A stretch of 64,000 bases of DNA from an uncultured Latescibacterota bacterium (lineage in GTDB: Bacteria; Latescibacterota; UBA2968). Position numbers and translations under genes: made by a program. Below the pieces are notes generated by a model, which saw only the letters and a list, made by a program, of their open reading frames with translations, had not been told where the DNA came from and did not search any database. This document shows, piece after piece, positions 52,537-63,253 of the stretch. The stretch lies in NCBI GenBank assembly GCA_951812755.1, contig OX638329.1, forward strand, positions 1,907,339 through 1,971,338, written 5' to 3'. Numbering within the stretch: the stretch's first letter is position 1; each line of letters starts with the position of its first letter.

Positions 52537-53781
52537 ATGGCTTCTGATAAACCAAATATTATTCTGATTTTGTCCGATGATTTGGGATATGAATGCCTGG
52601 GGTGTTACGGAGGTGAATCGTATCAAACGCCCGTGCTGGATGGTTTGAGCAAAGAGGGTATGCGTTTTGACCATGCATATGCCCTGCCGTTGTGTACGCC
52701 GACGCGGTTACAGTTGATGACGGGTAAATACAATTTTCGCAATTGGAGAGCTTTTGGGGTGATGGATCCCCAGGAGCGCACTTTTGGGCATCTGATGAAA
52801 GCGGCTGGCTATAAGACGTGTATTTCGGGCAAATGGCAAATGTATAGCTATAATCCGCCGGATTTTGAACCCGAGTGGCGCGGCAAAGGACAACTGGCAG
52901 AAGATTCGGGTTTTGATGAGTATTGCTTGTGGCATACGGAACACACCGAGGATAAGGGGTCGCGGTATGCCGATCCAGTGATTCAACAAAATGGGAAGTA
53001 TTTGGAGGATACAGAGGGCAAGTACGGTCCGGATATTTATACGGCTTATATTTGCGATTATATCGAGCGACATAAGGACGATCCGTTTTTTGTGTATTAC
53101 CCAATGGCGCTGACACACGGTCCGTTTGAACCGACGCCCCATAGCGAAATATGGTCTGAAAACCGGCACGATAGCGGTGTGAAGTATTTTGCGGATATGG
53201 TTGCGTATATGGATGTGGTGATTGGGCGGATTGTGGATAAATTAGACGAACTCGGTCTGAGAGAGAATACTCTGCTTCTGTTTATAGGCGATAATGGATC
53301 GCCCCGTCAGGTGACTTCTATTATCAATGGTCGCGAGTTCCAGGGGGGAAAGGGTCTTTCGACGGATGCGGGTACGCGGGTGCCACTTATTGCGAGTTGG
53401 CCGGGTACGATCCCACCGGGGTCTGTGTGTGATGATTTGATCGATTGCAGCGATTTTTTGCCGTTGATGATGGATATGGCTGGCACTTCTTTGCCCGAGG
53501 ACGATGTGTTTGATGGGGTGTCATTTTTGCCGCAGTTAAAGGGCGAGATGGGAACGCCGCGCGAGTGGATTTTTGCCCATCACGATCCCCTGCCCGGATG
53601 GGGTAAGGTGGGCTACTACTTAAAGCGATGGGCACAGGATAAACGCTGGAAGCTCTACGATACGGGCGATCTATACGATGTCGTAGCAGATGAGTTGGAA
53701 GAACATCCAATCGTCGATGGAGGCGCAGAAGCCGAGGTAGCGCGACAAAAATTGCAGCCCGTGCTGGATCGGATGAAGTGA
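52537..53781 (+). CDS. Formylglycine-dependent sulfatase, second copy
   Basis: The 414-residue enzyme begins N-I-I-L-I-L-S-D-D-L-G-Y, with paired metal-binding aspartates, and has the signature C53-T-P-T-R57 for formylglycine formation. F-I-G-D-N-G-S is the later metal motif. It is shorter than the sulfatase at 40790 and belongs to another subgroup. No signal peptide is seen. AAAGGAG precedes the ATG. Its neighbour upstream is the enolase-superfamily gene, separated by a repeat element. Confidence 0.93.
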   Translation: MASDKPNIILILSDDLGYECLGCYGGESYQTPVLDGLSKEGMRFDHAYALPLCTPTRLQLMTGKYNFRNWRAFGVMDPQERTFGHLMKAAGYKTCISGKWQMYSYNPPDFEPEWRGKGQLAEDSGFDEYCLWHTEHTEDKGSRYADPVIQQNGKYLEDTEGKYGPDIYTAYICDYIERHKDDPFFVYYPMALTHGPFEPTPHSEIWSENRHDSGVKYFADMVAYMDVVIGRIVDKLDELGLRENTLLLFIGDNGSPRQVTSIINGREFQGGKGLSTDAGTRVPLIASWPGTIPPGSVCDDLIDCSDFLPLMMDMAGTSLPEDDVFDGVSFLPQLKGEMGTPREWIFAHHDPLPGWGKVGYYLKRWAQDKRWKLYDTGDLYDVVADELEEHPIVDGGAEAEVARQKLQPVLDRMK

Positions 53782-53811
53782 GGCGGCGTTTATCTCGCCG
53801 ATATTTCCAAC

Positions 53812-53840
53812 TTGACACAGTTTGTGTACAGCAATAAAAT
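53812..53840 (+). promoter_or_regulatory. Sigma-70 promoter with internal dyad before the ATPase-helicase operon
   Basis: TTGACA, exactly 17 bases and TAAAAT stand about 50 bases before the ATG at 53888. An inverted repeat ACACA-GTT-TGTGT (53815-53827) covers the end of the -35 box and the spacer, a position suited to a repressor. No regulator gene is adjacent. Confidence 0.7.
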
Positions 53841-53887
53841 TACACGCGAGCAGAAATCACTTACACTCAAAACAGAAGGTGATCCAA

Positions 53888-54721
53888 ATGGCAGATCGAG
53901 AAGAATTTCTTGAGCAAATGCAAGAGAGATTGACGGATGTGGTCAAGCCCTATCAACTACAGCAGAACCGTCGTCAAAGAATGGCCGATTTTGTGAAACA
54001 ATGTGTCCGCTGTGCCGGGCGGAATGACTTTTTTCAACTCGACGAATTGCTGAAGTCTAAAATGGCGCAGGATGTAGAAGAAGAAGTAGGGCTAAAGGAC
54101 GGTGCAGAATTTTTAGAGCAATTGCGTATTTACGCGGATGAACAGGTGGAGCGATACCGAATCCAATTCATAGAAGACCTGACGACATTAGCCAATGAAG
54201 CAAAACTTCCAATAGAGATCGATTTCCCGCGCATTGGAGTACTCAAGGGCATAGAGGGAGAAGTTGACTTTGCTCAGCGGAAAACTGTAATTAACAAAAA
54301 AGCCTTGAAATCCGTAGATCCAAAGCGTATTATTACCGCCCTGCGAAGGGTAAAGCAGCAACTCTATGATCGCCCTTATGATCCACAGGAATTTATTGAC
54401 AAACTATATGACGTATATGCGGAAATTCTAAAAAAAGAAGAGCGAGAGATGGGGCACCCGGTTGCAATGCAGCAGTTGTATCTGGAATATGTGTTATCTC
54501 TTCAGAGTCGGGCATTTTTTCAGGACATGGACAAGGGAAAGTTTCGAGGGTATAGCCTGGATCAATTTGCCGTAGATATTTGGCGTTATTTTCAGGCCGG
54601 TACTGGGGGCACGTCAAATGGCTATGCTGTGCAGCTAAGACCGGGGCGGAATAGGGCACTTTGGTTGATTGACAGCGATGGAGAACGGCGACAGATTACC
54701 ACCATTGCTTTTCAAACCTAA
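53888..54721 (+). CDS. Unrecognised helical protein, first gene of the ATPase-helicase operon
   Basis: 277 residues from the ATG at 53888 (AGGTGAT site). An upstream in-frame start is excluded because it lies within the promoter. The protein is predicted almost wholly helical and charged: E-E-F-L-E-Q-M-Q-E-R-L near the start, a C-V-R-C pair at about 37-40, and Y-L-E-Y-V-L-S-L-Q-S-R-A near 190. A short beta-like end (Y-A-V-Q-L-R-P-G-R-N-R-A-L-W-L-I) follows. There is no P-loop, nuclease or methylase motif and no TerB-like pattern. The next gene begins 15 bases after the stop. By position it may be a targeting or scaffold subunit of the complex. Confidence 0.75.
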   Translation: MADREEFLEQMQERLTDVVKPYQLQQNRRQRMADFVKQCVRCAGRNDFFQLDELLKSKMAQDVEEEVGLKDGAEFLEQLRIYADEQVERYRIQFIEDLTTLANEAKLPIEIDFPRIGVLKGIEGEVDFAQRKTVINKKALKSVDPKRIITALRRVKQQLYDRPYDPQEFIDKLYDVYAEILKKEEREMGHPVAMQQLYLEYVLSLQSRAFFQDMDKGKFRGYSLDQFAVDIWRYFQAGTGGTSNGYAVQLRPGRNRALWLIDSDGERRQITTIAFQT

Positions 54722-54736
54722 AAAAGGACATGACGC

Positions 54737-56032
54737 ATGACACAAAAAGATTTGGAGCAACTCAAACCCTTTGAGGCGCGGGCAATTATTGAAGATCTCC
54801 GAAAAGGTAGCGTGCCGATTGAGTATGTGCCCTTTTTTACTGTGGGTCGCCAGAACTGGTTGAAGTTTATCGAAGAAGACCTGGATAACTACATCGCAGA
54901 GGGGGGCGCGAAGGTTCGCTTTGTCAATGGGGACTACGGCGATGGCAAAACGCATTTTATGTCGGTTATCAAGCACCTCGCGCTTCAAAAAAAATTCGCC
55001 GTGTCTTTTGTGGTGCTCACGCGCGAAGTGCCCATACACAAATTTGAGATTGTCTATCAAACTATTGTGCGGCAACTTTGCGGTTCTTTTGAGGGCGTTG
55101 GTATCCGACAACTCGTTGATGCGTGGGTCGAAAATCTGAAAACCGATCTGACAGATGACGCACCCCTTGAAGAACAACTTTTCTCTGTGGGCGAAAGCCT
55201 GCGTGCCCTTTCTGGGATGGATCTCAACTTTGCCAACGCTCTGATTGGGTTGGCAGACAATCGCCTCAGACCTCTCGAAGCCAGTGAAGACGAAGAGGCG
55301 CGTGCATATCAGCGGGAGATTCTCTACCAGTGGTTTGAAGGTGCGCGGGTGAGCAAGCGAGAACTCAAACCGTTCCAGATTTTTGAAGCCCTTGATAAGA
55401 CCAATAGCAAGCGATTTCTGACCTCGCTCATTGTCTTTTTGCGGCATCTCAACTACAAGGGCCTCGTGCTGTTGATGGATGAATTGGAAACCGTGATCGC
55501 CCAATCGACAACCATTCGCAATGCGTCATACGAAAATGTCCGCTTGCTGATCGACAATGCCGAGCAAGCCGCTTATTTGCACATTTTTATGTCCATCATT
55601 CCCGATGTGACGCTCTCAGAAAAGGGATTTAAGTCCTATGACGCCCTGTGGAGTCGCGTGCGTTCCATTGGGGAAAGCAAAAGACTGAATTACCGCAGCG
55701 TGTTGGTCGATCTTCACAGGACGCCTTTGGAAACCCGCGAATTGGTTGATCTGGGGCTTTGTTTGAAACGCATTCACGAATTGTCCTATCGCTGGGATGC
55801 TCAGGAACAGGTTGATGAATCATTGTTAAAAAAAATGTGTGCAGCGCAAAAGCGCATGGGGCTTTTAAGTGAGGTCCGGCTCTATATCAAGCAAGTCATC
55901 CGCATACTCGACATGGCCGAGCAAGGTGTGCCGCCAGACGAAGATATGGATATGGCCGAGCAACTCGTGGTCAGCCAGCGGGAAATGGATGAAGAAAAAG
56001 TTGAGCAACTTCAACCGACGTGGGATGCCTGA
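54737..56032 (+). CDS. BREX BrxC/BrxD-like P-loop ATPase
   Basis: 431 residues resembling the BREX ATP-binding family (DUF2791). The N-terminus A-R-A-I-I-E-D-L-R-K-G-S-V-P with F-T-V-G-R-Q-N-W-L is typical, Walker A is G-D-Y-G-D-G-K-T at 65-72, and Walker B is L-V-L-L-M-D-E-L-E near 242-250. Family members are ORC/Cdc6-like AAA+ ATPases associated with anti-phage islands. The stop codon overlaps the next ATG (TGATG), so two ATPases are translated together. The substrate is probably DNA or a DNA-bound partner (inference). Confidence 0.82.
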   Translation: MTQKDLEQLKPFEARAIIEDLRKGSVPIEYVPFFTVGRQNWLKFIEEDLDNYIAEGGAKVRFVNGDYGDGKTHFMSVIKHLALQKKFAVSFVVLTREVPIHKFEIVYQTIVRQLCGSFEGVGIRQLVDAWVENLKTDLTDDAPLEEQLFSVGESLRALSGMDLNFANALIGLADNRLRPLEASEDEEARAYQREILYQWFEGARVSKRELKPFQIFEALDKTNSKRFLTSLIVFLRHLNYKGLVLLMDELETVIAQSTTIRNASYENVRLLIDNAEQAAYLHIFMSIIPDVTLSEKGFKSYDALWSRVRSIGESKRLNYRSVLVDLHRTPLETRELVDLGLCLKRIHELSYRWDAQEQVDESLLKKMCAAQKRMGLLSEVRLYIKQVIRILDMAEQGVPPDEDMDMAEQLVVSQREMDEEKVEQLQPTWDA

Positions 56033-57249
56033 TGACCGACTTTCACACCCCATCCAATGAAACGGGATTCCACCTGCGGCGTGCAACAGAACGCCTGCGG
56101 GAGGGGCTTTTTGATCCGGTTGCGGTTCGCTTGCTCACAGCTCGCGAAAGCCGCCTGAACAAAATCATTGACCGCGATTTTCAAAAACTCGATCAAAATA
56201 AGGCGACCCACCTGTGCATCTGTGGGGCTTATGGACAGGGTAAATCGCACAGTTTGAACTATATCCAGGACAGGGCCCTGCGCGAAAATTTTGTGACCAG
56301 CCTGATCAATTTGGACCCTCGAGAAATTCCCTTTCACGATATGCGACGGGTCTATCATGCCCTGGTCGCCTCTATGAGATTTCCAGACACAGACACCTCA
56401 TGGGCAGCGCGATGGCGCGTTTTTGCCGCTGGCCTGCCGCACGAAGACTTTGAAGACCGGGTCGCCCCGCTTTTGCACCGTGAAATGCCACACCTGTTCC
56501 GATCTGTCCTGACCGCGATGGCTCAAAAAACAATCTCCCTTTCAAAGCGACAGCGCGGCACCAAAAAACACGCCTCATACCGCCCTCGTGAATTTCCCTA
56601 CCTGCTTTCCCGCGCGCTTACAGGCGATGTGGTTCCGGTCTATCGCCTGCGCCATGCCCTCAAGTACCGACAGGTTGATTTTTACAAAGATGAATCACTT
56701 ACCTGTAAAGGTGCAGAGCCTTATCTTCAAATGATTCGCGGATTGGGGCAGCTTTTCCAGATGATGGGCTACCGGGGATGGGTGTTGTTGTTTGACGAAG
56801 GAGAATCGATTTCTCAAGTGCGCGTGACCAGCCGCAGCCGCAGTTATCAGAATTTGGATCTTATGCTTTTCCCTGAAGTCCCGTCCGCATCTGTTTATCC
56901 GGTTTTTGCCTTTACAGACGACTTTTTTCAAAAAGTAAATGAAGAAGAATACGACCGCGTGCGAATCCGCAACGAAGAGGAATTGCCGTATTTCGAGAAA
57001 AATTACGCCCGCGCCTGGACGGGTTTGAACCGCTATCTCCTGCACGATTTGTCCGCAAAAGAATGGCAGGTGTTGATCGAAAAGTTGATGCAATTGCATG
57101 CGAGTGCCTATCAGTGGCAGCCAGATGCCGATGTGCAGCGCGAAATGACCCGGCGATTATCCCACATGCAAGGGCAGGAGACGCGTTATCGGCTCAAAGG
57201 TCTGGTCGATGAATTGGACCTCGCGCATCAAGTCCAAATACTGATTTAA
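56032..57249 (+). CDS. Second P-loop ATPase of the operon
   Basis: 405 residues from the ATG that overlaps the previous stop. Walker A G-A-Y-G-Q-G-K-S lies at 65-72, the same distance from the start as in the first ATPase, and Walker B is W-V-L-L-F-D-E-G-E-S near 245-254. The protein is a divergent relative of the first ATPase, with a long helical C-terminus. Paired unequal ATPases suggest a heteromeric ring or a loader for the helicase that follows 29 bases downstream. No exact family name is certain. Confidence 0.8.
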   Translation: MTDFHTPSNETGFHLRRATERLREGLFDPVAVRLLTARESRLNKIIDRDFQKLDQNKATHLCICGAYGQGKSHSLNYIQDRALRENFVTSLINLDPREIPFHDMRRVYHALVASMRFPDTDTSWAARWRVFAAGLPHEDFEDRVAPLLHREMPHLFRSVLTAMAQKTISLSKRQRGTKKHASYRPREFPYLLSRALTGDVVPVYRLRHALKYRQVDFYKDESLTCKGAEPYLQMIRGLGQLFQMMGYRGWVLLFDEGESISQVRVTSRSRSYQNLDLMLFPEVPSASVYPVFAFTDDFFQKVNEEEYDRVRIRNEEELPYFEKNYARAWTGLNRYLLHDLSAKEWQVLIEKLMQLHASAYQWQPDADVQREMTRRLSHMQGQETRYRLKGLVDELDLAHQVQILI

Positions 57250-57278
57250 ACCCTATCAGCACATGTTTTGTAACCACC

Positions 57279-60200
57279 ATGTCTGAATCCATTTCTCCCC
57301 TGCTTCAACTGCCCAATACCTACCGCGCATTCTACGGCTCTTTTCCCCATCTCTATCCCTTTCAAAAGCAAGCGATTGAACCGCTCTTGCAGGGCAAAGA
57401 TCTGATCTTACAATCGGCAACTGGCTCTGGCAAAACCGAAGCCGTGCTGGCGCCGTGTATCGAGCGCGTGATTCAATCGGGGCGGCGACAAACCGCGCTT
57501 TATGTGGTGCCCACCCGCGCCCTGGCCGTGGATTTGGAACGCCGTTTGACGCCTGTCTTAAAGGACAGACTCGGCCTGCAAATTGGGATACGCACGGGCG
57601 ATTTCAAACGGGCGGGCGGGGCATTGCCCGATTTGTTATTGACAACGCCCGAATCTTTTGATGTGCTCATGGGCAGTCCAAATGCAGATTTAAAACAGTT
57701 TGTACAGCGCATTCGCACGGTCATTATCGATGAAGCACATCCTTTTATTCATCAGTATCGCGGGCGGCAATTATCCTATTTGCTCACGCGCTTGCAACGC
57801 CGCATCGCCCATCCCGTGCAAAAGATCGCCCTTTCCGCCACGCTTTCCGATGTCGAGGAGGTCGCCCGTTTTTTTGGCTTCCGAACCGATACCGTTTTCC
57901 TGACCGAATCTGTCCAACGCGATATTGTCCCCCATCTGATCCATCTCAAAAACGATGAGGTCGAACTCGTCGCGCTCCTGAACGATCTCTACGAAACCTA
58001 CGAGTATCGCAAAATTTTGTTATTCGCCAACAGCCGGGGGTGTTGTGACCGGCTGTTTTCTCTTTTGTCGCGTCAGGGTGCGTTTCAAGGTGTTACTGAC
58101 CTCCACTACTCCAACCTCAATGCCAGCACGCGCCGCGCCGTGGAATACCGATTTCGCCGCCGCGAACACGCCCTTTGCATTGCCACCAGCACCCTTGAAC
58201 TCGGCATAGATATCGGCGATGTGGATAGCGTATTGCTCTACGAACCGCCGGATGCCACATCGGCCTTTCTCCAGCGCATTGGCCGATCCAACCGGCGAGA
58301 GGGTCGCACGCACTTTTGGGGCATCTGCCGAGGCGCAGATGCACAGGCGCAATTGCTCAGGTTTTTGGGTATGCTCAACATGGCGCGCCGCGGCCATATT
58401 GAAACACCACAACCCAAAACTCTGCCCAGCATTCTCGTCCAGCAAATGCTCTCTTGCCTCTACGAAAAGAAAACTATCACGCAGTCTGCTCTTTGCGATT
58501 TGTTTCCAGACCAGCGAGATATGATCGCACCGTTGTTTGAGGTGATGGCGCGGCAACAGTGGTTGCAACGCGATCGCGTGGATGGCCTGTTTAAGGGCGG
58601 GCGGCGTTACCGCGATTGTTTTCTGGAACGGCGTATCTGGAGCAATTTCCCCGATACCGAAGAGGATTATGTGCTGGAATTTGCGGGCGAAGCCATTGCA
58701 GACTTGCCCAAATTCATCGTTCGGCAATTAGAACTCGGAGACCGCGTGCAACTAACGGGCAAGCGACTGCGCGTTTTGAATATTGAAACGGGTGAACGCA
58801 AAAGAGTTATTGCCCAACCCACCGATCAAATAGAAACCAAAGAGCTTTTCTGGCTGGGTGCGGGGTTTCGGGTTTCTTATGAAGTCGCACAATCGGTTCG
58901 AGATGTACTTCAGACAGATGTGCAACAAAGCGCGTCTGGCTTATTTTCCCGCACGCGAAAATTGTTCAACGATGCGGCAAAAAGGCTAAAGCGCGTGGTC
59001 GTTTTGCACAATGGCATCGAAGTGGAACGCAGCTTGAACAACTTGTATCGCTATCGCACCTATCTCGGTTCTGTAGGCAATCTCGTGCTTCAGTGGATTA
59101 TTGAACGCGATTACGGCGATCTCAAAGATTTTATGGTGACTTCCGATAGTATCGGTATCGATTGTTCGCATTGGATCAATTTTCAAACGCTCCACCTCCC
59201 ACAAGACCGCGAAGCTTTTGTCCACTGGGTGGAAGAACATCTCGAATCCCTGTATAGCCTGTTTCAACTCAATGCCTTTTGCGAGGCATTGCCCCGCGCC
59301 CTGTTGGTTGAAGAAGTCGCGGATTTTCTTTTTGACCCGCGCATTGCCAGCACCTTCCGGCACTATCTGAAACGCCCTTCGGAAGTCGCGTCTGGTGATT
59401 CCGCCCTGCTCGCGGAAAATGTTTATGAGAGCGAATCGCAACTCGTTTTTTTGGATACCAAAATACAAACCGATTTGCTCGCCTGGGAAAAACAGCGGTG
59501 GCAGATCGGGACGATCCACGAAGGGACACAGAGGGGCACGAAGAAAGGGGATACGATCCACGAAGAGACACGCATAGGCGAAGTCTACAACGCAGCGAAG
59601 CAAGAAGCGGATGCAAAGATAGCGTATCGTCCGCGGTCGCTCACGGGTACGATGGTGGGCGCGTATTTTTTGCACCATCAATGTGAACGGTGGTTGGCCC
59701 TCAATTTTGTACCCGCTGAACAAACTCGCTGGCGAGATAGCGATACAGACCTGAACGCGCTTCGGATGGAACGGGGAAATCTGCACGAAAAACAGGTGCT
59801 GAATCGCATTCGGGAGATCGATGTTTTGCGCGAAGTGGCGGCGTTTGACCAAACGGGTAGGCGACTTTCCCTCAAATCGCGATTTGAAACGACCTTCGCG
59901 CTGTTGAAAGACATGGACACAACCCCCGATCAATCCACATTTTTGTTTCAAGCCGTCCTGATCCAGTCTTCTGTTTTGGGGCAAAAAGACCATTGGGTGA
60001 GCCAGGTAGATGGTGTTGGCATTCCCGATCTCATCCGCATTTCAAAAAAAGAGAGCGGCGTTGTGTTGCAAGTGGGCGACATTAAGGACAGCCCAATGCC
60101 TTATGAGACGCAAAAGTGGCAGGTTGCATTTTACGCCCATCTGCTCGCCAGCGCGATTGCACAGCACGAGTTGCCCATGCGCGTGGCGTCTTCGGGGTTT

Positions 60201-63026
60201 CTGATGTTGCGTCCCGCACGGGAAAACGAAGCACTCGAACCGCACGTTTTTGACCTTGAACCCTATCTGACGGCTCTTCCCATGCTGTTCCGAAATATGA
60301 GCGGCGTCTTGCAACAGGCGCCTGTCCATGCACGTTATCACCTCCAAACCCACTGTACCGCGTGCCCCAATTTTGAGGCGTGTTATCGGGGGGCACTCCA
60401 GGTAGAGGATATTCACCTTTTGCCGCATCTGAGCGCGGGGGCGCTGCAAAAGTTTCGCCAGCGCGCTCTCAAAACCATGGCATCTGCCCATGCGTGGTTT
60501 GAATCTGCGTCCGCTTCAGAGGGCGATCTTTTCAGCCCATACCAGAAAATACATCTTTCGGGTCAACTTGCCGCGCTGCAAGCAAATAAAATCAGCCTGA
60601 AGGAAGAACAGACTCGGTCTTATCCGGGCAATCTATCCACAGCCTTTTTCATACACATCGCCGAAGATCCGCTTTCGGGACACCCATGTGCGATAGGTTG
60701 GCGTGCGATGCAGGGGGCAACGGTAGTCGAGAGCCATATCTTCGAGGTCGCATCGGAGCGCGAGTTATCAGAAGTGTTGCAGGATTTCACGGCGCGTTTT
60801 TTATCGCTCTGGCATCAGAGTATTACAGGTGGACGCGGGCCACATATTTTTCATTTTGGAACGCGCTGCTGGCAGGCTTTTGAGGACTGGTGTATGGGAT
60901 CAGAAGACCTGTCTTTTTTGTTTTCGCCCCATCGCAACCACCGCACAGATTTGCAAAAGCTGATCGCATCGCACTTCAACTTTCCCATGCCGGGAAATTC
61001 GACGCTTTTCGCGCTCAACCGCCTGTTGGGTCTCAATGCCGAATTTCCCGAACCGCAAAGTCTGTTTCATTTTGATGAGGACGAGGGGATACAAAAAAAA
61101 GAAATAGCCGAGTATCTCAACACCGTATTGCACTTGCAAATATCGCTGTGGGAATGGGCGTCATCGCACTTGACGAGCGAGTGGGAACAAAGCGAATGGG
61201 ACATGGATGAGATGCAGAGCCAGCAAACAGCGTATCTCAATTTTTTGGCAGAGGAGCGACGGCTTCGGGAAGAAGATGTGCTCGCCATGCAAGCCCTGCC
61301 CTTGTCTGAGCGCGTTGAACGCTTTCGCGCGATTGGTCCCATTCGTTTTCGCAAAATCACGCTGGACGACGAAGGCCGCTTTCTCTACGAATTTCAAACA
61401 GAAATGGGCCTCTCAAAATTCCGCGCAGGCGATTTTCTCAAACTCGCGCCCGCTGGCCTGTCCGATGTGCAAAACGGTTTGCCTGTCATCCTCACAGCTC
61501 ACAGCGCGGAGCACTTGTGCGTGCAGTCTCGGCAGGGGCGATTGGCCTTAAACCCGAGACTTTTGTATTCTCTGGAAGAGGACTTGACCGATTGGAATGG
61601 TCCTCGCCTGATTCACGCGGTTCAAACCGTTTTTTCCAAAGATCGCGTCCATCCGCTATCGCAACTCTTGTCCGGCACCTGGCGTGCGGCGCGAGAACCC
61701 GATGCGCTGAGATGGGTGCAAAATTGGATGCGCGAATTTGGCGCGATCGCAGGACTCAATGAGAGGCAACAACAGGCTCTGTCATTGCCTTTTACACATC
61801 GCTTGAGCCTGATTGAAGGGCCGCCGGGAACGGGTAAAACACACTTGTTGGGTTGGATATTAATTGCGTTGATCCTGCAAGCGCAAGCAGAAGGCAGGCC
61901 GTTGCGGATTGCGGTGAGCGCGTTGACGCATCAGGCCATTGACCAGGTGCTCAAAAAAGTGGTCGCGCTCGTGGAACAACACAGCTTGCAGGGCTTTCCC
62001 GCCCAATGCTTCAAATTGGGACGATGGGATTTGACAGAGCGCGGGATAGAACAATTAGAGGATGTGGAAACACTCGCAGAATCTCCTTATGCAATTGTCG
62101 GTGCCACGGGATTTGGCCTCTATCAGCTTTTTGAAGGTCGCAAGGGGACGTTCCCGCAGGTATTTGATTGGGTTGTATTTGATGAGGCATCGCAGATGCT
62201 CATTCCCCAAGCGTTGTTGAGCCTGCTCTATGGCAAGGGAAATTTCCTGTTTGCCGGAGACACCAAACAATTGCCGCCCATTGTCCTGTCAGATGGCAAA
62301 GAGGAGGAGATGGGCACACACCATTCCGCACTGTCCTATCTGCTCGGTCAATACGACCCCGCCCACCGCATCCGCCTGGATCGCACGTATCGCATGAACG
62401 AAGACCTGTGTGCTTTTCCCAGTTACATGTGGTATGATGGCGACCTCCGCGCCCACGCTGGCAATGCACACAACCGACTCGCGCTGCAACACACCGACCA
62501 CCGCGATCTTTTAGACCGCGTTCTCGATCCGACAAAACCCGTTGTTCTCCTCATTGTCGATCACCAGGACCGTCACCAGAAATCCGATGAGGAAATCGAG
62601 ATGACAACCCAACTCGCCCATCGTTTGATTGCCGAACACAGTTTGGATGCCGATCAAATCGCGCTGATTTCGCCCCACCGCGCACAAAACAACGCCACCG
62701 CCGACCGCCTCGCAAAGCGACTTGGAGATGCCAACGCCAAACTGCCCTTAATCGATACGGTAGAACGCGTGCAAGGCGCGGAACGCGATGTCATTCTATA
62801 TGCCTTTACCGCATCCGATCCCGATTATGTCACCAGCCCATTTTTGAACAATCCCAATCGCTTTAACGTGGCTATCACACGCGCCCGGCAAAAGCTGATT
62901 GTGGTGGGTAGCCAGGCGTTTTTCTTCGCCATTCCACAATCAGAGGACGCATTAAAAGCCAACCGCTGTTTCAAGGCGTTTTACGAGTTTTGTAGGGAAC
63001 GAGAGAGTTTGTTTTTTTGGAAGTAG
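57279..63026 (+). CDS. Giant dual helicase-nuclease, SF2 plus Cas4-like plus SF1
   Basis: This 1,915-residue chain starts with an SF2 helicase (1-380): Walker A A-T-G-S-G-K-T near 47-53, D-E-A-H at 151-154, S-A-T at 186-188 and Q-R-I-G-R-S-N-R-R at 332-340. After a long accessory region comes a Cas4/AddB-like nuclease: Cys802, Asp911, D934-I-K936, Q948-x3-Y952, and C1026-x2-C1029-x5-C1035 for an iron-sulfur cluster. A segment near 1120-1200 may be RNase H-like. The end is a UPF1/Dna2-type SF1 helicase: G-P-P-G-T-G-K-T at 1514-1521, D-E-A-S near 1635, and V-Q-G-A-E-R-D-V and N-V-A-I-T-R-A-R. A repeat-derived stretch lies near 745-766. It probably unwinds and cuts invading DNA together with the two ATPases (inference). 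Confidence 0.9.
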   Translation: MSESISPLLQLPNTYRAFYGSFPHLYPFQKQAIEPLLQGKDLILQSATGSGKTEAVLAPCIERVIQSGRRQTALYVVPTRALAVDLERRLTPVLKDRLGLQIGIRTGDFKRAGGALPDLLLTTPESFDVLMGSPNADLKQFVQRIRTVIIDEAHPFIHQYRGRQLSYLLTRLQRRIAHPVQKIALSATLSDVEEVARFFGFRTDTVFLTESVQRDIVPHLIHLKNDEVELVALLNDLYETYEYRKILLFANSRGCCDRLFSLLSRQGAFQGVTDLHYSNLNASTRRAVEYRFRRREHALCIATSTLELGIDIGDVDSVLLYEPPDATSAFLQRIGRSNRREGRTHFWGICRGADAQAQLLRFLGMLNMARRGHIETPQPKTLPSILVQQMLSCLYEKKTITQSALCDLFPDQRDMIAPLFEVMARQQWLQRDRVDGLFKGGRRYRDCFLERRIWSNFPDTEEDYVLEFAGEAIADLPKFIVRQLELGDRVQLTGKRLRVLNIETGERKRVIAQPTDQIETKELFWLGAGFRVSYEVAQSVRDVLQTDVQQSASGLFSRTRKLFNDAAKRLKRVVVLHNGIEVERSLNNLYRYRTYLGSVGNLVLQWIIERDYGDLKDFMVTSDSIGIDCSHWINFQTLHLPQDREAFVHWVEEHLESLYSLFQLNAFCEALPRALLVEEVADFLFDPRIASTFRHYLKRPSEVASGDSALLAENVYESESQLVFLDTKIQTDLLAWEKQRWQIGTIHEGTQRGTKKGDTIHEETRIGEVYNAAKQEADAKIAYRPRSLTGTMVGAYFLHHQCERWLALNFVPAEQTRWRDSDTDLNALRMERGNLHEKQVLNRIREIDVLREVAAFDQTGRRLSLKSRFETTFALLKDMDTTPDQSTFLFQAVLIQSSVLGQKDHWVSQVDGVGIPDLIRISKKESGVVLQVGDIKDSPMPYETQKWQVAFYAHLLASAIAQHELPMRVASSGFLMLRPARENEALEPHVFDLEPYLTALPMLFRNMSGVLQQAPVHARYHLQTHCTACPNFEACYRGALQVEDIHLLPHLSAGALQKFRQRALKTMASAHAWFESASASEGDLFSPYQKIHLSGQLAALQANKISLKEEQTRSYPGNLSTAFFIHIAEDPLSGHPCAIGWRAMQGATVVESHIFEVASERELSEVLQDFTARFLSLWHQSITGGRGPHIFHFGTRCWQAFEDWCMGSEDLSFLFSPHRNHRTDLQKLIASHFNFPMPGNSTLFALNRLLGLNAEFPEPQSLFHFDEDEGIQKKEIAEYLNTVLHLQISLWEWASSHLTSEWEQSEWDMDEMQSQQTAYLNFLAEERRLREEDVLAMQALPLSERVERFRAIGPIRFRKITLDDEGRFLYEFQTEMGLSKFRAGDFLKLAPAGLSDVQNGLPVILTAHSAEHLCVQSRQGRLALNPRLLYSLEEDLTDWNGPRLIHAVQTVFSKDRVHPLSQLLSGTWRAAREPDALRWVQNWMREFGAIAGLNERQQQALSLPFTHRLSLIEGPPGTGKTHLLGWILIALILQAQAEGRPLRIAVSALTHQAIDQVLKKVVALVEQHSLQGFPAQCFKLGRWDLTERGIEQLEDVETLAESPYAIVGATGFGLYQLFEGRKGTFPQVFDWVVFDEASQMLIPQALLSLLYGKGNFLFAGDTKQLPPIVLSDGKEEEMGTHHSALSYLLGQYDPAHRIRLDRTYRMNEDLCAFPSYMWYDGDLRAHAGNAHNRLALQHTDHRDLLDRVLDPTKPVVLLIVDHQDRHQKSDEEIEMTTQLAHRLIAEHSLDADQIALISPHRAQNNATADRLAKRLGDANAKLPLIDTVERVQGAERDVILYAFTASDPDYVTSPFLNNPNRFNVAITRARQKLIVVGSQAFFFAIPQSEDALKANRCFKAFYEFCRERESLFFWK
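59512..59575 (+). repeat. STRR-like repeat inserted in frame in the helicase gene
   Basis: Two copies of GATCCACGAAG(G/A)GACAC start at 59513 and 59555, separated by CAGAGGGGCACGAAG-type units. They encode I-H-E-G-T-Q-R-G-T-K-K-G and I-H-E-E-T-R-I-G. The low-complexity, repeat-phrase style is that of the intergenic elements of this window and unlike the flanking coding sequence. The reading frame is kept. Confidence 0.6.
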
Positions 63027-63115
63027 TCAGTAGTCAGTCCGCCCAGCCCCCAGTCTCAAGTCTCCAGCCCCATCTTTGCCTTTCTTTGTGTCTTTGTGTC
63101 TTTGTGTCTTTGTGT
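63023..63115 (-). repeat. Composite STRR-like repeat after the helicase gene
   Basis: Read on the minus strand: four CACAAAGA octamers, a GGGGCTGGAGACT block, GGGGGCTGG and then GACTGACTACTGACTACT. The G-rich and heptamer blocks match those at 52,470-52,527 in reverse. It begins at the helicase stop codon. Confidence 0.7.
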
Positions 63116-63253
63116 GAGATCCTCGCACCCTGCACTTTCCTCTGCACATTTTGTTCTCTCCGAACTACCCATTGTGAACACATCGTTCAACCCATATCTG
63201 TTCCGATATTGTGTATTTGTTTCTATAACAACAAGTTACGCTCCGTGTCGTTC

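Follow-up and report, generated by a model that had tools for sequence, protein, structure and literature searches.

An orphan protein, two BrxD-type ATPases and a helicase-nuclease encoded by one operon: a candidate anti-invader system of an uncultured Latescibacterota bacterium

Organization of the four-gene locus

The window, a stretch of 64,000 nucleotides from an uncultured Latescibacterota bacterium (GCA_951812755.1, contig OX638329.1, positions 1,907,339 to 1,971,338), contains four genes, here called A, B, C and D, that were described in an initial annotation as a candidate defence or DNA-processing operon. The open reading frames confirmed that all four genes lie on the + strand, with junctions of 15 bp between A and B, a 13-bp overlap between B and C, and 29 bp between C and D. 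The single consensus promoter proposed ahead of the operon was also read directly in the sequence. The features of the locus are as follows.

53812..53840, + strand: promoter TTGACA-17-TAAAAT, sigma-70-type
53888..54721, + strand: gene A, orphan protein of 277 amino acids; C-terminal part tentatively winged-helix-like (ORC/Cdc6/Cdt1)
54737..56032, + strand: gene B, BrxD-type ORC/Cdc6-like ATPase; Walker A (K71) and Walker B intact
56020..57249, + strand: gene C, second, divergent BrxD-type ATPase; Walker A (K75) and Walker B intact; a line of its own in the tree
57279..63026, + strand: gene D, helicase-nuclease-helicase of 1915 amino acids

The reading frame of gene A was retained, but its listed start (53822-54721, + strand) was not; the most likely start is the ATG at 53888, because similarity to the relatives begins there. 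In the relative L007, a stop codon is located just upstream of the position matching 53888. An inverted repeat, ACACA-GTT-TGTGT (53815-53827), overlaps the -35 box and the spacer of the promoter and could be an operator. Both promoter and repeat are retained in the genus relatives L006, L007 and L008, with a changed repeat centre, and the promoter is not retained in the more distant L028.

Domain composition of protein D

The claim that D is a single chain with two helicases and a Cas4-like nuclease proved to be real. Pfam matches to DEAD and Helicase_C were located at the N-terminal end and matches to AAA_11/AAA_12 at the C-terminal end, and the following parts were distinguished (SF1 and SF2, helicase superfamilies 1 and 2).

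57279..59378, + strand: residues 1-700, BrxHI/SngC-like SF2 helicase (PADLOC BrxHI 8.2e-89, SngC 8e-73; also by tree)
59586..60464, + strand: residues 770-1062, Cas4-like PD-(D/E)XK nuclease (Cys 802, 1026, 1029 and 1035; D917, D934 and K936)
60624..61178, + strand: residues 1116-1300, DnaQ/oligoribonuclease-like fold
61716..63023, + strand: residues 1480-1915, Dna2/UPF1-type SF1 helicase (AAA_12 1.2e-29, AAA_11 4.1e-23, TIGR00376 7.7e-45)

The nuclease match was weak when the D protein of the window was used alone (PF01930, E 0.16; TIGR00372, E 0.0017 for a sub-piece). Scanning of the aligned D relatives at E <= 5 gave PF01930 in 10/10 (best 1.3e-5) and PDDEXK_1 in 7/10 (best 7.6e-6), the eleventh relative, L077, being omitted on account of a run of N in its gene. 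The active-site D, D and K and the four Fe-S cysteines are all present in D of the window, and over 11 D proteins D934 was kept in 11, K936 in 10, D917 in 9 and the four cysteines in all 11. The fold of residues 770-1490 was predicted from five sequences with a mean predicted local distance difference test (pLDDT) score of 50.3, and only the core of the nuclease (64-87 in blocks) and a portion of the domain that follows are usable. Cas4 was the best structural match of the nuclease region in this low-confidence fold. Since no real hit came from searching PDB sequences with a profile of the nuclease (best E 0.3), the nuclease call depends on the Pfam/NCBIfam matches, the motifs and the fold comparison.

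The region at residues 1116-1300 showed a VIA Z of 8.2 to 1zbh_A on a low-confidence model and is spanned by the TIGR03491 match in the relatives, of which the best (L015; 3.8e-11, 42.6 bits) was under the curated cut-off of 97.45 bits; the corresponding piece of D from the window had no match to this model at E <= 5. This region is probably without activity, because no acidic motif I was found in the alignment. The whole of D resembles a BrxHI helicase joined to a nuclease-helicase of the TM0106/Dna2 type. The TM0106 family (TIGR03491) and Dna2 share with D the Cas4-like nuclease, the DnaQ/RNase H-like part and the SF1 helicase, whereas in D these parts follow a BrxHI-like helicase in one chain and belong to an operon with two ATPases; elsewhere, as in plasmid annotations, the TM0106-family RecB-like nuclease is a protein of its own.

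The composition of D bears on the main rival explanation, in which the operon is an accessory DNA-repair or recombination machine that replaces or backs up AddAB/RecBCD or Dna2-like end processing. Besides Cas4, the D nuclease resembles MGME1, AddB, Exo5 and Dna2, and the N-terminal part of D matches a ligase-associated repair helicase model at 1.3e-59, both of which would suit repair, as would the ordinary genes found as neighbours.

ATPases B and C

The proposed resemblance of the first ATPase to the BrxC/BrxD family was borne out by the Pfam match of B to PF10923 (4.1e-56, 191.1 bits, curated cut-off 22.2 bits), and C was recognized as a second ATPase by the same family (6.9e-23, 81.7 bits). 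Among the PADLOC models, B matched BrxD (2.1e-44) and SngB (4.3e-34). The Walker A and Walker B motifs are intact in 14/14 B proteins and 14/14 C proteins.

The ATPase tree was built from 50 rows, including 14 B, 14 C, five BrxD, three SngB and seven distant C partners. All 14 B proteins formed one clade (100/100) apart from the BrxD and SngB rows, which joined each other (98/97), and the 14 C proteins also formed a single group (100/100). C together with six of the seven distant C partners split from all other rows at 94/91 (not starred); the seventh (L084) joined its own B partner, and this join was flagged as possibly false.

Protein A

No confident match of A was found in Pfam (none below E 0.046), PADLOC-DB 2023 or NCBIfam, and 12 relatives of A were likewise without a confident family match in Pfam and PADLOC. 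Two candidate identities were rejected. A TerB protein was not supported, as 13 A proteins gave no TerB match in Pfam (E <= 0.1) and no SngA match in PADLOC; a known PDB family was not credited either, the best sequence match (E 0.014) being partial and coiled-coil-like.

The predicted fold of A had a low-confidence pLDDT of 64.7, and Foldseek gave nothing under E 0.001 with this model. The VIA list was headed by ORC winged helices at Z 6-7, with ORC1 first (Z 6.9, root mean square deviation 3.0, 77 residues; caution line Z 8), and similarity below significance was also seen to kleisin and to JetA winged helices. On this model, the C-terminal part of A tentatively resembles the winged-helix domains of ORC/Cdc6/Cdt1.

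Conservation of the gene set

A search of genome contigs with protein A of the window revealed 11 loci, in records named Latescibacterota, Gemmatimonadota, and sulfate-reducing or syntrophic bacteria, and the order A-B-C-D is kept in Latescibacterota, the phylum of the window, and in Thermodesulfobacteriota. The order A-B-C was found in 19/20 distinct close loci, the contig of the twentieth ending after B. A D-type helicase gene was next in line in all 17 loci that run past C, in L012 after one inserted gene. In these 17 loci, D was encoded by one full-length frame in 12, two genes in 2 (L010 and L076), three frames in 1 (L006) and a helicase alone in 1 (L012), and was cut by the contig end in 1 (L078). 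The split in L076 is a true gene fission, because its halves overlap by ATGA; L010 and L076 are sisters in the helicase tree. The short D of L012 represents a loss, given its position within the D clade. Cultured relatives with the set include Desulfobacter latus (L015) and Desulforhabdus (L010). The gene inserted in L012 (13477-14130), between C and the helicase-only D, has a nucleotidyltransferase domain (PF01909, 1.2e-9).

The protein distances of A, B, C and the helicase part of D were correlated over 13 loci (r 0.848-0.941; 0/2000 permutations as high), showing that the four genes were not shuffled independently, an agreement that shared vertical descent would also give. Together, the gene order and the distances show well that A-B-C-D is one unit, and the expectation that the four genes travel together was upheld. 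Their homologues do move as a set; a fixed set of four genes, however, was not found, since two relatives have a divided D and one has a short D, and the core also carries other helicases.

A conserved core with exchangeable effectors

To survey the core more widely, a profile of A (A9) was run over 395 genomes in the phylum of Desulforhabdus (Thermodesulfobacteriota) and 64 genomes in the phylum of the window. Matches were found in 25/395 Thermodesulfobacteriota genomes, and in 18 of these 25, A was followed by at least two BrxD-type ATPases. The layouts comprised A-B-C-D (7/25), A-B-C with a stand-alone BrxHI-like helicase (4/25), and A with a shorter ATPase, a C-type ATPase, a protein of 185-188 amino acids and an SNF2 helicase (4/25; N-interrupted in L091). 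One genome each had the SNF2-type layout without the SNF2 gene (L175), A with at least three ATPases up to the contig end (L089), and a broken remnant with an SNF2 piece (L182). In the phylum of the window, A9 matched 10/64 genomes, with seven A-B-C-D types (in G031 the contig ends after C), one stand-alone helicase (G050), one SNF2 type (G021), and one A with a shorter ATPase at a contig end (G018).

An Mrr endonuclease domain (PF04471) forms the C-terminal end of the SNF2 proteins from L092 (2.9e-22) and L093 (5.1e-24), and the Mrr motifs GG[VI]DL and QCK are kept in 4/4 SNF2 proteins. On the Aulosira laxa plasmid AP018310, listed as conjugative in PLSDB, an A-B-C-helicase set begins 172 bp behind a BREX-2-like run of an Eco57I-type methylase, PglZ, BrxD (PF10923, 7.7e-130) and BrxHI. 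The Desulfomonile tiedjei plasmid pDESTI.01 (L034) also carries A-B-C with a helicase of this stand-alone kind.

These results showed that the core of A and two ATPases is general and that the effector is swapped among BrxHI-like, BrxHI-Cas4-Dna2 and SNF2-Mrr forms. Two unrelated helicase-nucleases with the expected active-site motifs serve the same core, and the effector side of the system is firmer than the loader side. In the A-B-C-helicase variant, which has no visible nuclease, another enzyme would have to cut.

Two further observations were made in the survey. In L178 (genome G226), A and two BrxD-type ATPases are not directly followed by a helicase gene. An A-like gene of about 280 amino acids without BrxD-type ATPases, regarded here as a housekeeping cousin of A, was seen in five Thermodesulfobacteriota genomes (L086, L087, L088, L090 and L179). 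These five, out of six ATPase-free A-like genes, adjoin genes that by their sequence are sugar-phosphate genes of the hexulose-phosphate synthase/isomerase type, and the sixth (L177) has a helix-turn-helix-like start.

Relationship to BREX-2, Shango and other systems

The PADLOC matches of B and D agreed with the initial annotation that BREX-2 and Shango are the nearest known plans. The operon resembles BREX-2 in that a BrxD-type ATPase is followed by a BrxHI-like helicase, and the copy on AP018310 lies directly behind such genes; unlike BREX-2, it includes protein A and a further ATPase from a distinct line, its helicase continues into a nuclease-helicase, and PglZ is missing from the operon in the 18 genomes checked. 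Shango, which restricts phages according to PMC10250203, has a similar plan in three parts, its first protein being followed by a BrxD-type ATPase and then a BrxHI-type helicase; here, in contrast, the first protein gave no TerB match, there are two ATPases and a giant helicase-nuclease, and the proteins fall in separate clades. SngC of Shango is free-standing, whereas D, despite its match to SngC, is fused to a nuclease-helicase.

In the helicase tree (27 rows, including D, the stand-alone partners, four BrxHI and two SngC), D and the stand-alone partners split from BrxHI and SngC at 100/100. The BrxD, SngB, BrxHI and SngC reference rows of both trees were plasmid records picked from hit lists and are a thin sampling. 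B and D match the BrxD and BrxHI families (for NF033438, 149.1 bits vs the cut-off of 350) yet lie outside the sampled BREX-2 (BrxD/BrxHI) and Shango (SngB/SngC) clades.

The reported absence of TerB and PglZ genes at the operon also held in profile searches. PF05099 (TerB) had no match in the genome of the window; PF08665 (PglZ) matched in 14/18 operon-bearing genomes, with none at the operon. The single PF08665 match in the genome of the window is about 514 kb away, that in G004 is 76 kb away on the same contig, and the others are on different contigs. No PglX methylase, PglY/BrxC or PglW gene lies inside 53780-63142, which is filled by the four genes, no profile search for them having been made at the operon. 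Similarly, no methylase travels with the A-B-C-D set in the loci seen, no methylase profile search having been made near the window.

It is quite improbable that the operon is merely a divergent branch of Shango or BREX-2 with the same mechanism. The matches of B to BrxD and SngB and of the N-terminus of D to BrxHI and SngC would be expected of such a branch, but the lack of a TerB match in A and in the genome, the distance of the only PglZ-domain match, and the extra second ATPase and nuclease argue against it, as do the separate clade of B and the split of the helicases, each at 100/100 on the few reference rows available.

BREX-related (BR) systems, according to an excerpt of PMC12839542, contain helicases fused to a PD-(D/E)XK nuclease (SNF2 fusions) beside an ORC/Cdc6-type ATPase. 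The SNF2 helicase-nuclease next to an ORC/Cdc6-type ATPase is common to BR systems and to the loci described here; BR systems differ in having DUF499 ATPases and methylases instead of PF10923 ATPases and protein A. An existing system definition with exactly the four components of this operon was not found in PADLOC-DB 2023, which has no model matching A and, among the hits seen, no entry uniting these parts, and no description of the gene set was found in searches of open-licence papers, most of them judged from listings.

In genome G066, a TerB gene lies beside a PF10923 ATPase gene (3.7e-152) on contig C335 (13120-15137; L035, L196), and this pair looks like Shango. The same genome also carries A-B-C with a short D on another contig.

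Presence and absence within the genus

The four genes form an accessory cassette, a single block that some genomes of the window's genus have and others lack; A was found in 4/11 of these genomes.

53780..63142, + strand: accessory cassette, 9363 bp; six empty alleles

Alignment of the empty alleles (L116-L121) with the window stops at 53779 or 53789 and resumes at 63143 or 63144. The cassette is flanked by a sulfatase gene upstream of A and by a ComM-like gene (Pfam), and these two genes are 181-183 bp apart in G001, G002, G003, G006, G007 and contig C366 of G010. Occupied and empty alleles were both found in G010, on different contigs (C366, empty; C382), probably reflecting a strain mixture in one assembly. 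The site was left unresolved by G008, in which the sulfatase was found and ComM was not found nearby, and by the fragmentary G005. The block therefore comes and goes as one unit, like defence loci. No integrase was found within the cassette.

The sporadic presence with clean empty sites, the plasmid copy directly behind BREX-type genes, and the replacement of the effector by an Mrr restriction nuclease are more in keeping with restriction than with repair. Accordingly, an accessory repair or recombination machine is considered unlikely, although it is the main rival.

Genomic context

The flanks were compared with control genes to determine whether the loci cluster in defence islands. PADLOC families matched at 1e-10 numbered 74 for 91/91 called flank genes (14 loci) and 16 for 91 control genes; the control set represented 91 of 106 called genes (15 left out to equalise numbers) from 11 of 12 intended stretches. 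The 74 families overlap heavily and are mostly due to one methylase, one restriction-gene piece, sigma-54-type regulators and a RecD-like helicase, so that the difference is no more than mild evidence for defence islands. The defence matches in the flanks included part of a type III restriction gene (L080) and a type II methylase (L014), most of the other genes being ordinary, and consistent clustering in defence islands was not borne out. Plasmid records matching A numbered one with A of the window and 2/72,556 with A of Aulosira.

Proposed function

According to PMC12839542, BrxD is an ORC-Cdc6 ATPase without an extra DNA-binding domain that may load BrxHI, and BrxC carries a winged helix behind its ATPase. 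In the operon described here, the small protein A, for which ORC1 winged helices ranked first, precedes two BrxD-type ATPases, and for this reason the predicted fold suggests a loader whose winged helix is on a separate chain. BrxD-type ATPases have no DNA-binding winged helix of their own, and A may provide one; B and C, as ORC/Cdc6-class AAA+ ATPases, would join A to form the loader. The loader would use ATP to place D on foreign DNA, D would open the duplex with its BrxHI-like SF2 and Dna2-type SF1 motors, and the Cas4-like nuclease would degrade the opened DNA.

A defence role is likely, whereas loading by A-B-C and the foreign-DNA target are inferred. We favour, with fair but not strong confidence, the interpretation that A-B-C-D is an accessory anti-invader machine in which an ORC/Cdc6-like loader places interchangeable helicases or helicase-nucleases on foreign DNA. 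A broader and more doubtful proposal, which we put forward tentatively, is that A-B-C works as a general loader in immunity, equivalent in bacteria to ORC/Cdc6 but with the winged helix in a protein of its own, and that by loading swappable effectors it licenses foreign DNA to be destroyed; BREX-2 and Shango would then be cousins with a simpler loader.

Several observations weigh against the anti-invader interpretation. The nuclease residues are degenerate in 3/11 D proteins (L079 and L081 at D917; L077 at K936), and several distant partner ATPases are without a canonical Walker A. The winged-helix view of A depends on a low-confidence model with a Z under the caution line of 8, and an A-like gene without ATPases nearby was present in 6/25 genomes of the Thermodesulfobacteriota survey, indicating that A-like proteins also do something else. 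The GC content of the cassette (51.4%) is ordinary compared with a mean of 50.1% and inside the range of equal windows (47.0-52.2%), so that composition gives no signal of horizontal transfer. The flanks are not a clear defence island, as only a few of the 91 flank genes match defence models strongly. No relative of A was found in 50,697 phage records, and none was confirmed in the IMG/VR viral contigs with patterns of A and D of the window, which find close relatives only.

A loader might instead recognise a structure, such as a fork, an end or a relaxed circle, and not phage, and the operon would then act in plasmid exclusion or replication-fork surveillance. ORC/Cdc6-like loaders act on replication DNA, and the weak similarity of A to kleisin and JetA winged helices is in line with such a role; these fold similarities, however, are below significance, and this explanation is very improbable.

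BrxD and a helicase partner are fixtures of BREX-2 and Shango, for which helicase loading is only suggested as the role in PMC12839542. Here, a close relative of this pair occurs on its own, accompanied by a second ATPase and a nuclease that can be seen, and an unrelated SNF2-Mrr effector is found with the same core. If different motors are carried by A-B-C, the loader job becomes testable with a small number of proteins, with consequences for BREX-2 and Shango. The operon also represents a candidate defence family for whose protein A there is no model in PADLOC-DB 2023.

Ends of the cassette

A short tandem repeat of TTTGTGTC-like units was observed at about 63080-63115, just inside the right end of the cassette. 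At the other end, the sulfatase gene upstream of A belongs to a very large set, with 247 sulfatase matches at E <= 0.001 in the genome of the window.

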